In this document: positions 37,126 to 39,970 of the stretch, in pieces | Layout of the letters: each line of letters starts with the position of its first letter | Position numbering within the stretch: the stretch's first letter is position 1 | Assembly: GCF_002005165.1 (NCBI RefSeq) | Contig: NZ_CP019699.1 | Coordinates: 558,001 to 622,000 of the forward strand | Source of the DNA: Novibacillus thermophilus | GTDB taxonomy: Bacteria; Bacillota; Bacilli; Thermoactinomycetales; Novibacillaceae | Length of the DNA: 64,000 nucleotides | Direction: 5' to 3' | Made by a program: the position numbers and the translations under genes | The notes under the pieces: model-generated | What the model saw: only the letters and a program-made list of their open reading frames with translations | Database searches by the model: none | What the model was told of the DNA's origin: nothing

Positions 37126-37248
37126 TCAGTTATCGCTCTGCACGGTCGGTTGGTGCGAACCGATCGGATAGCTCTCACCAGCAAACGCTACGGCAGGAAG
37201 CGATAACAGTGCCAAAACGACAAATCCGAGCAACGTTTTTTTCAACAT
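37126..37248 (-). CDS. 40-residue secreted pro-peptide, candidate signalling peptide (Phr/NprX-like)
   Basis: Not recognised by length-filtered ORF calling. ATG 37248 lies one base after the stop codon of the RRNPP-type regulator, with GGGAGGG ten bases upstream. The product has a classic signal peptide: MLKK, a hydrophobic core (LLGFVVLALLSL) and an AFA cleavage site near residue 23, leaving a 17-residue hydrophilic tail GESYPIGSHQPTVQSDN. This architecture and position match pro-peptides of Rap-Phr, NprR-NprX and PlcR-PapR systems, where a short C-terminal fragment is re-imported and binds the TPR regulator. The function is inferred, but the ORF, ribosome binding site and signal peptide are seen directly. 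Confidence 0.75.
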   Translation of the reverse strand: MLKKTLLGFVVLALLSLPAVAFAGESYPIGSHQPTVQSDN

Positions 37249-37249
37249 C

Positions 37250-38569
37250 TTAAATTATCCCTCCCTTAACGTACTCTTTTTCCAATGCGTACAGTTCACC
37301 CATGTACTTCAAAAATTTCTCATTGTCCGTATGCTCGTGTAACTGGGCTAACAGGACAGTGGCCTCTTTATGTTCTTTCGAAAACCCGTGCTTCTTCGCC
37401 AGGTCAAAAGCTTTTTCCAACACTTCCTGGGCGCTGTCTTTTTCCTCAAGTTCCATGTAAATGTCCGCCAACATCAGCAGCGCTTCGCTTAAATACTTGT
37501 GGTTGGCTGTTTTTTCCGCCAGTTCCACCGCCTGGTGCAAGTCCTCTTTTCCTTTTTGAAAGAGGCCGCGTTTAACTGAAATTTGACCGAGGAACATAAA
37601 GGTGCGAATCAAATACTCGCTGGAAAGGTGCTTATGCTTTATGGACAGTGACGTTTTAAAACACTGTTCAGCCATGTCGTAGTTCTCCGTGAGGAAGTAA
37701 TTCTCTCCTAAGTTGTTCCACAAAATCCCGGTTAATTTCGGATCGTTGGTCAAATGTAAAAACTTTTGGGCCTCTTTTAGTGTGTCGATGGCATCTTCTA
37801 CATTGTAGTAGTTTTGTTGAATGATCGCTTTTAAAATGTATATGGAAATGAGGCTGTAGTAGTCGTTGTTTTCCTGGGCAATCGACATCGCTTCCACCGT
37901 TAGCCCGTAAGCTTGGTTCGCTTTGCCGATGCGTTCGTAGTACAGTGCGAGGTTGTGGAGCTGGCGACCTTTCAAGTAAGGGCGTTCGCCGTTCGGGTTG
38001 AACGTTTTGAGCGCCTGCTTCGTGTACCGAATGGCGGCATTAAAATTGTTTTGATAATAGGAAATGTAACCTAAATTTCCGTATGCCTCCGAGATTAAGT
38101 TTGTTTCCTCAGGAACGTGCAACTCTTTTGCGCGGCGAATGACATTGTGAAATTCCCATTCGGCCCGGTCGTATTTTTTTTGGTACATAAAATTTTTCCC
38201 GCGGAAAAACGTGAGGCGGCACAGGTGGGTCGGGTTCCCTTTTTTTCTTTCCTCGTGTTCCAACGCTTTCAAGCGGCTTTCCGCCTCGTCGTAACAGTGA
38301 TTCAAGATGAGTGAATTGATCTGGTCCAATTTAATTTCGAAAAAGTCTTCTAACTCCTCCTCTTCTTGAGCCACCTCTTTCAGTTCATCCAAACTCAGTC
38401 CGAGCCGGTTCAACAGATAGTCCAGTTTATCTTGTGAGATGTGACGCGTCACGCCCCGTTCAATGTTGCTAATGGTCGGGACAGACAGTTGCGGACCAGC
38501 CAGATCCTGCAGAGTCAATCCCATTTCTTTCCTCTTGCGACGTATGAGTTCTCCAATGTGTTGTTCCAC
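37250..38569 (-). CDS. XRE-HTH + TPR regulator (RRNPP-type peptide receptor)
   Basis: 439 residues: an N-terminal XRE helix-turn-helix (about 1-62, LTLQDLAGPQLSVPTISNIERG) and a long array of tetratricopeptide repeats (about 75-430, for example AYGNLGYISYYQNNFNAAIRY and ILWNNLGENYFLTENYDMAEQCF), the layout of PlcR/NprR-type quorum-sensing receptors. The frame is open to 38674, but GTG 38569 (VEQHIGELIRRKRKEMG) has GGGGGAGA eight bases upstream and is chosen. A secreted pro-peptide gene follows one base after the stop. Probably a peptide-responsive transcription factor; targets unknown. Confidence 0.87.
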   Translation of the reverse strand: MEQHIGELIRRKRKEMGLTLQDLAGPQLSVPTISNIERGVTRHISQDKLDYLLNRLGLSLDELKEVAQEEEELEDFFEIKLDQINSLILNHCYDEAESRLKALEHEERKKGNPTHLCRLTFFRGKNFMYQKKYDRAEWEFHNVIRRAKELHVPEETNLISEAYGNLGYISYYQNNFNAAIRYTKQALKTFNPNGERPYLKGRQLHNLALYYERIGKANQAYGLTVEAMSIAQENNDYYSLISIYILKAIIQQNYYNVEDAIDTLKEAQKFLHLTNDPKLTGILWNNLGENYFLTENYDMAEQCFKTSLSIKHKHLSSEYLIRTFMFLGQISVKRGLFQKGKEDLHQAVELAEKTANHKYLSEALLMLADIYMELEEKDSAQEVLEKAFDLAKKHGFSKEHKEATVLLAQLHEHTDNEKFLKYMGELYALEKEYVKGGII

Positions 38570-38933
38570 CGCATAATCTCCCCCGTATTCGTTACTTTCC
38601 CGAACAATTTCAAACATTCTACACGTTATTATAATGAATTGTAGTGTTTTCGTAAATAAAAATTTTACATACAAGGGGAAATTGTTCGAGAATTTTACAT
38701 CGATTACCTCTCATTTGTACAGAAGAGCAACAAGACAGATTTTCTAGAACAGACGGGTCGCGGCGTTACCCGAAAGCCGTAATCTGCCTTTTGCCATCAA
38801 TATATGGGGATGGAACGCTGCATATTACTGGTGATTCAGCAAAAATTGCGACTGGGATTGTTTATATTTTGTCACACTGTTCCCACTTCCGTTATGCTAA
38901 AATAGCGAATATGGATTGAGAGGAGGATGGAAG
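38570..38933. promoter_or_regulatory. divergent intergenic region with two promoters
   Basis: On the minus strand TTTACG (38656-38651), 17-bp spacer, TATAAT (38633-38628) fits the regulator's promoter. On the plus strand TTGTCA (38869-38874), 18-bp spacer, TATGCT (38893-38898) fits the promoter of the coiled-coil protein gene. The middle (38660-38865) holds no ORF or obvious operator that I recognise. Confidence 0.6.
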
Positions 38934-39653
38934 ATGCGGAGAGTTGCCATTATTCTAATTTTGACATTCGTACTGGCGACGCCGGCGTTGGCGGCGAGTC
39001 AAGAAGCTTCACAAGAGCAGGCGGCGGCTTGGGATAAAGTCGTATTGGACTATTATGACGGGAAGTACGGAGCCTCCGAGGAGTACGATCAAGACTATGT
39101 CAACATCAGCGACTGGGTGATCCTTGATGTGGATTCTTCTGAACTGGAGGCACAAGTCCGAGAAGAAATAGCCGTGAAGGAACAAGAACTGGCAGAAATT
39201 GAGCGACAAGTGGGCGAATTACAAGAGCGTTACGACTACTTTCACAGTCTCATGCAAAGCGTAGAGGACGAGGATTACAAAAAAGAGTTGGAGTCCCTTG
39301 TCCAAGACGCGGAGAAAGCTTTGAACGACGCCCAGAAAGAAGCCGAAAGCATACAGAGTGAGATTCAGGGCTTACAAGAAGAAGAGTACTTAACTCAAGT
39401 AGCAGTCGCAAAGGCCGAAATTAAATTCGGCGGCAACGTGCTCGGCACGATGACTCAGCGCGAGGACTTGTTTGTCAACCCTGAAAACGGTGAAATGATG
39501 GACGCAGCGACAGCGAAAGAGTACGCAGAAGTTAGCGAATATCTCAGTGAGCAGCCGCAAGTGGACCAACAAACGTATCACCACGAAACGGTCGGTTTGT
39601 TCTTTCTCGTCATTGGTTTGGGCGGCTGGTGGTTAGTCAACCGAAAACTTTAA
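38934..39653 (+). CDS. exported coiled-coil protein with C-terminal membrane anchor
   Basis: Unrecognised family, 239 residues. A signal peptide (MRRVAIILILTFVLATPALAAS) is followed by an acidic region (YYDGKYGASEEYDQDY), a coiled coil of about 90 residues rich in Glu and Gln (ELEAQVREEIAVKEQELAEI to QSEIQGLQEEEY), then a short region and a C-terminal span VGLFFLVIGLGGWWLVNRKL. The layout predicts an extracytoplasmic protein held in the membrane at its C-terminus. ATG 38934 follows GAGGAGGATGG; ATG 38916 lacks a site. Divergent from the RRNPP regulator, so a possible target of it, by inference. Confidence 0.7.
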   Translation: MRRVAIILILTFVLATPALAASQEASQEQAAAWDKVVLDYYDGKYGASEEYDQDYVNISDWVILDVDSSELEAQVREEIAVKEQELAEIERQVGELQERYDYFHSLMQSVEDEDYKKELESLVQDAEKALNDAQKEAESIQSEIQGLQEEEYLTQVAVAKAEIKFGGNVLGTMTQREDLFVNPENGEMMDAATAKEYAEVSEYLSEQPQVDQQTYHHETVGLFFLVIGLGGWWLVNRKL

Positions 39654-39689: not shown

Positions 39690-39694
39690 ACGGA

Positions 39695-39970
39695 AAACGC
39701 GACATCGTGAAACGGCGATGACAAGGCTACGAGTGTGAAGGGATGCCGGTTGCAAGAGAGAAGGCCCTTGGCTGGAAGGCCTTTAACGCGGCGCTCGCAC
39801 TTACCTCCTTTGAGCTGCAGCGGGGAACGCGGTCGACGTCAGTAACCGCTGCCGGTTTTTTCGCCGTTATGCCGGTGAAGGGTTTACCGGATGGGCTGTT
39901 CCGGTAAACTGAATGAGGGTGGAACCACGACGCAGACGCTCGTCCCTTTTGGCGGACGGGCGTTTTTAGT
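39695..39970 (+). promoter_or_regulatory. T-box leader (threonine) of thrS
   Basis: The T-box core AGGGTGGAACCACG lies at 39916-39929, followed by the terminator ACGCTCGTCC (39936-39945) / GGACGGGCGT (39954-39963) and TTTTT. Upstream is a long stem I region; ACC at 39803-39805, in CACTTACCTCC, is a good specifier codon candidate for threonine. Uncharged tRNA-Thr would favour the antiterminator and raise thrS expression. Confidence 0.93.

Follow-up and report, generated by a model that had tools for sequence, protein, structure and literature searches.

In the chromosome of Novibacillus thermophilus, two adjacent minus-strand genes very probably form a signalling pair of the RRNPP type, in which a receptor with a helix-turn-helix (HTH) domain and tetratricopeptide repeats (TPRs) would respond to a peptide with a GESYPIG-type core. 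Both genes lie in a stretch of 64,000 nucleotides (contig NZ_CP019699.1, positions 558,001 to 622,000), referred to here as the window, and positions are counted from its first letter. The RRNPP reading, already proposed in an initial annotation of the window, is supported by the domain content and the predicted fold of the receptor, by the recurrence of the two-gene layout throughout the order Thermoactinomycetales and by the retention of the pair in an orthologous locus. As read from the sequences, the mechanism could be the following: The leader of the 40-residue precursor suggests export by the Sec pathway, and signal peptidase I would presumably cleave after AFA. Further proteolysis, to which the pattern of conservation points, may then free the N-terminal part of the 17-residue chain (around GESYPIG) from its tail. 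The peptide may be re-imported by an oligopeptide permease (the genome holds five OppA-type binding-protein genes) and, judging from the fold, bind to the concave face of the receptor's TPR domain. Peptide binding may alter the association of the receptor with a palindromic site between its own gene and the gene of an exported coiled-coil protein; the co-inheritance of the latter and an invariant 17-mer suggest that the outcome would be control of the receptor's own operon and/or of the coiled-coil protein. The pair would add a signalling system with a concrete candidate peptide and operator to a poorly studied branch of the Bacillota.

Receptor and pro-peptide genes

The elements of the pair are arranged as follows:

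37250..38569, minus strand: HTH-TPR receptor/regulator gene with GTG start, 439 aa; HTH_3 and TPR families, AlphaFold model, orthologue of 65% identity in a genome from a second genus of the family (G001)
37259..37267, minus strand: ribosome-binding site of the small gene, AAGGGAGGG, inside the last codons of the receptor gene; read directly, with GGAAGGAGG at the same place in the orthologue
37126..37248, minus strand: gene of the 40-aa pro-peptide, which has a separate ribosome-binding site and encodes a leader of Sec type; the arrangement recurs in the family
37180..37248, minus strand: secretion leader, residues 1-23, MLKKTLLGFVVLALLSLPAVAFA, with KK, a hydrophobic core and AFA; cleavage site placed by inspection only
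37159..37179, minus strand: likely pheromone core GESYPIG, residues 24-30; GEAYPIVM in the orthologue, proline at +5, exact ends presumed
37129..37158, minus strand: variable C-terminal tail SHQPTVQSDN, probably trimmed off; absent in the orthologous peptide, with varying tails in the paralogues of the clade

The regulator gene starts with GTG at 38569, 8 nt behind the ribosome-binding site GGGGGAG (38584-38578), and ends with TAA at 37252-37250. One base past this stop, on the same strand, the ATG of the small open reading frame (ORF) is found at 37248, with AAGGGAGGG located 10 nt upstream; the frame closes at 37128-37126 and encodes MLKKTLLGFVVLALLSLPAVAFA (leader) followed by GESYPIGSHQPTVQSDN (17-residue chain). 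The leader has AFA at positions -3 to -1 and passes a simple leader rule. Direct reading confirmed the initial annotation in these respects, coordinates included. A weak NCBIfam match of the small protein to Asr (E 0.09) was rejected as its identity, the alignment covering the leader only.

In a domain search of the regulator, residues 10-64 matched HTH_3 (E 1e-8) and several TPR families were found with E down to 2e-19, all above cut-offs; NCBIfam matches to FimS, AfsR and others were far under the cut-off, reflect the TPRs only and were rejected. The AlphaFold model, computed with 33 relatives (predicted local distance difference test score 91, predicted template modelling score 0.77), has an HTH at the N-terminus, followed by a long superhelix of TPRs. 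When this model was ranked against structures of Protein Data Bank (PDB) chains, NprR (Z 27.7, 344 residues, root-mean-square deviation 5.3) and RapI (Z 26.7) were both placed high. A search of PDB chains with the single regulator sequence gave no match; a family profile reached NprR at 5e-13 and RapF at 4e-10, among many generic TPR proteins. Apart from Sec export, which was judged by the simple rule only, the pair agrees with those items of the five-point RRNPP signature (PMC10075063) that can be computed: the receptor (439 aa) lies within 250-500 aa and combines TPRs with an N-terminal HTH, the pro-peptide (40 aa) lies within 10-100 aa and the gap of one base within -60 to 400 bp. Large-scale catalogues drawn from complete Firmicutes genomes may already include the pair as a candidate (PMC10075063).

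Receptors of this family occur in 41 of the 42 genomes of the order Thermoactinomycetales, to which nearly all named relatives belong (e.g., Kroppenstedtia, Melghirimyces, Thermoactinomyces and Laceyella). The downstream DNA of 103 receptors was read for ORFs of 25-80 codons with a basic-then-hydrophobic start that begin -45 to +60 bases from the receptor stop. Such a leader-like small ORF directly follows 62/103 receptors vs 14/195 control genes, the controls being further genes from the window and from the region syntenic to it (3/60) and neighbour genes in named relatives (11/135). The pairing thus exceeds chance; for the named relatives (25/43 receptors positive, compared with all 195 controls), Fisher's test gives p = 6e-13, which is only a guide because the sequences are related. 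The whole order therefore carries large sets of such pairs.

Across the order, several pro-peptides hold tandem copies of candidate pheromones (downstream of receptors L023, L027, L038, L042, L061, L091 and L101): NPGEY is repeated in L023 and (Q)SEPGGL occurs four times in L027, while SQEPGWP, KLDSDPRPA, SKPGGH and SEDPGMS are found among the others. These repeats are consistent with RRNPP pro-peptides, which are known to hold tandem pheromone copies (PMC11343458). The genome of the window has two further full-length receptors. A second complete pair in this genome (L002 and L004, G000:C1:981564-984455) has the peptide MLKKLIVSAVVVALLTLPVTAFAAERVVGHSFAPGPTVSTE; in front of it, in tandem, lies a TPR gene that was matched without the HTH part. 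In the sister genus, G001 has 13 further receptors (L007-L019), most with their own pro-peptide. Three receptor copies contain an in-frame stop (L017, L051 and L069), L017 still being followed by an intact pro-peptide ORF, which suggests birth and death of pairs. Plasmids yielded no full-length receptor relative and one weak TPR match, and phages yielded none, so there is no sign of an origin from mobile elements.

Probable position of the signal within the precursor

A single orthologue of the regulator was found, in G001, with 65% identity over the full length, whereas all other relatives share ~32% or less. Outside these two genera, 398 genomes of the class yielded no orthologue (E 1e-62), and neither did named genomes searched with the single regulator protein; among 398 genomes sampled from the phylum, the own genome alone matched at E 1e-22. 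The orthologous locus has the same gene order, dnaB-dnaI-hutP-(peptide-regulator)-coiled coil-thrS-infC. Its small ORF overlaps the regulator stop, has GGAAGGAGG upstream and encodes MANMLVGIVTAILFVLRTPDYLF followed by GEAYPIVM. Both peptides share GE[SA]YPI, starting at residue 24 in each, with five of the six residues identical (0/20,000 shuffles) and with synonymous differences (GGT/GGC, GAG/GAA) within the stretch; outside it, leader and tail have diverged or been lost, and SHQPTVQSDN is absent. That the start, the ribosome-binding site and GE[SA]YPI were kept while the rest diverged indicates selection on the peptide. The initial annotation had named loss of the ORF in a relative keeping the regulator as an observation that would speak against a pair; in the one relative checked, the ORF is retained, though with a leader devoid of a basic N-region and of an AxA site.

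The same position stands out among the paralogues. In the two-genus family, 13 precursors are readable (two need a TTG or CTG start inside a longer frame), and 11 clade paralogues have the leader type of the window peptide. With +1 set directly behind A-x-A (or at the homologous place), proline occupies +5 in 11/13 and glycine +1 in 8/13 (no column reached 11 in 20,000 shuffles); the sequences from +1 include GESYPIG, GEAYPIV, GDRMPVI, GTRGPIV, GTRAPIV and GDRCPTP, and the tails behind them vary. In the other families of the order, proline is located exactly at -4 from the C-terminus in 43/49 precursors (0/5,000 shuffles), as in SEPGGL, SNPGHA and GDPVHI. A receptor tree (101 sequences) places the two-genus group on one side of a branch that has support 100, so the precursor layout goes with the receptor clade.

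Since the orthologue keeps GE[SA]YPI and most clade peptides have proline at +5, the window pheromone probably contains GESYPI from the start of the secreted chain, with SHQPTVQSDN as a tail. On this point the initial annotation, which had sought the signal in the tail ending with SHQPTVQSDN, is not supported. A classical RRNPP pair whose pheromone is formed by the last residues of the precursor (e.g., TVQSDN), as it is in the majority of Phr, PapR and AloP peptides, would accord with the C-terminal motif conserved in the sister-group peptides, but is unlikely: the orthologous peptide ends right after GEAYPI(VM), without a counterpart of the tail, and the constrained position in the clade is +5 behind the leader and not the C-terminus. 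Pheromones away from the C-terminus are already known for NprX (PMC10075063) and for PhrH and PhrK (PMC7425212), and an N-proximal core would thus be a variation inside a known kind. The balance of evidence somewhat favours a displacement of the pheromone within the precursor, in one receptor family and one order, from the C-terminus (proline at -4), as in most families, to the place behind the leader (proline at +5) in the window's clade, leaving a disposable tail, which one genus would have lost along with its standard Sec leader. Because each layout would call for its own processing, such a displacement would mean that precursor and protease use were rewired in evolution.

Some observations weigh against the pair as described here. 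Animal TPR proteins such as LGN stand slightly above NprR (Z 30) in the structure ranking, so the predicted fold, which fits and supports RRNPP membership, is not specific alone and does not prove it. Of the two further full-length paralogues in the window's genome, one (L003) has no small ORF, and the same is true of several receptors in G001. The orthologue exists in two genomes only, such that conservation amounts to one pair plus paralogues, and recent duplication could partly explain the conservation among the latter; this caveat is countered by a deep split that parts the window pair from the other paralogues, with proline at +5 on both sides. Finally, the orthologous leader MANMLVGIVTAILFVLRTPDYLF fails the simple leader rule; without a basic residue before the hydrophobic core and without AxA, the export route of this peptide is uncertain. 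SHP peptides are known to use PptAB-type export with leaders that SignalP misses (PMC10075063).

The atypical orthologous leader and the paralogues lacking a small ORF would also suit a working HTH-TPR repressor whose small ORF is, in at least one of the two genera, the decaying remnant of a lost pheromone gene. Such decay is quite improbable, given the full leader and ribosome-binding site of the window ORF and the elements that both ORFs keep despite divergence elsewhere, which point to selection. Small leader-bearing proteins exist in many kinds, and the product of the ORF might be one of these, a microprotein of the membrane or envelope that shares a transcript with the regulator without being its signal; this is extremely improbable, as the order-wide pairing with diversified, sometimes tandem-repeated short motifs fits pheromones and not a structural protein. 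If the pheromone of the RRNPP pair indeed lies directly behind the leader, the standard search assumption (the last 5-10 residues) would mislead in this clade. Such a layout would also let the change in precursor processing be compared between two sister groups while the receptors stay conserved.

Neighbouring genes and a candidate operator

On one side, hutP (HutP, PF09021, E 1e-28) is arranged tail-to-tail with the pair in the single 3.63-Mb contig of the genome; on the other side follow a divergent coiled-coil gene and, beyond it, thrS and infC. Two features of this region bear on regulation:

38754..38772, no strand assigned: candidate operator CGGGT-N9-ACCCG, containing a 17-mer invariant between the two genomes
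38934..39653, plus strand: divergent gene of an exported coiled-coil protein that has a membrane segment at its C-terminus, likely the local target; only in the two genomes with the regulator

The coiled-coil protein matched no Pfam family. Its gene is present in 2/42 genomes of the order, exactly those with the regulator, and is adjacent and divergent in both (43% identity). The sole block of at least 11 bp common to the two orthologous intergenic regions is the 17-mer GGTCGCGGCGTTACCCG (38756-38772). In both genomes it lies ~190-200 bp upstream of where the regulator gene begins, and in the window it belongs to the CGGGT-N9-ACCCG palindrome. Because of the exclusive co-occurrence and the invariant block, the target is probably local, the palindrome serving as a putative operator for the regulator operon and/or the coiled-coil gene. 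The initial annotation had placed the pair between hutP and the divergent coiled-coil gene, which holds, and had suggested the latter as a possible target, for which these two observations speak without proving it. A wider regulon found no support: the 17-mer is unique in the genome, and near matches (up to three mismatches) are about as frequent as those of a reversed control pattern (20 vs 18), i.e., close to chance. When sought upstream of the clade paralogues, the 17-mer was not common to them.

Upstream of thrS, a leader at 39690-39970 (GGGTGGAACCACG...T-run end) has a T-box-like look; an Rfam scan of the whole window, this leader included, returned nothing at gathering score. The sister genus has two complete threonyl-tRNA synthetase genes in tandem (L048:9653-11593 and L048:12317-14251), where the window shows one.

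Comparison with known systems

Rap-Phr of Bacillus subtilis shares with the window pair the TPR fold and a small secreted pro-peptide gene directly after the receptor gene. Unlike the window receptor, Rap is devoid of an HTH, and its targets are response regulators or partners of these; most Phr pheromones are pentapeptides from the C-terminus of the precursor (PMC7425212). The C-terminal-type pairs of the other Thermoactinomycetales families (among L021-L107) have homologous receptors (~25-32% identity), the same gene order and Sec-type leaders, but differ in the proline at -4 of their pro-peptides and form a separate group of the receptor tree. NprR-NprX of the Bacillus cereus group has the same HTH-TPR receptor fold, and NprR is matched by the family profile; like the proposed core, NprX is an exception to the rule of C-terminal pheromones (PMC10075063). 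The differences are a low identity (14-16% in structural alignments), another neighbourhood and another presumed target.

AloR-AloP of the Paenibacillaceae, compared by description, likewise consists of an HTH + TPR receptor immediately followed by a secreted pro-peptide of 32-50 aa, with many paralogous pairs per genome (PMC7425212). The pheromone tested for AloP13 is a hexapeptide from the C-terminus, SHGRGG (PMC7425212), whereas here the conserved core stands behind the leader, and there was no sign of close AloR kinship in the search of 398 phylum genomes mentioned above. AloR-AloP pairs can control a neighbouring gene, as described for alo13 and spo0E, with which the putative local control by the window pair would be comparable in logic (PMC7425212).
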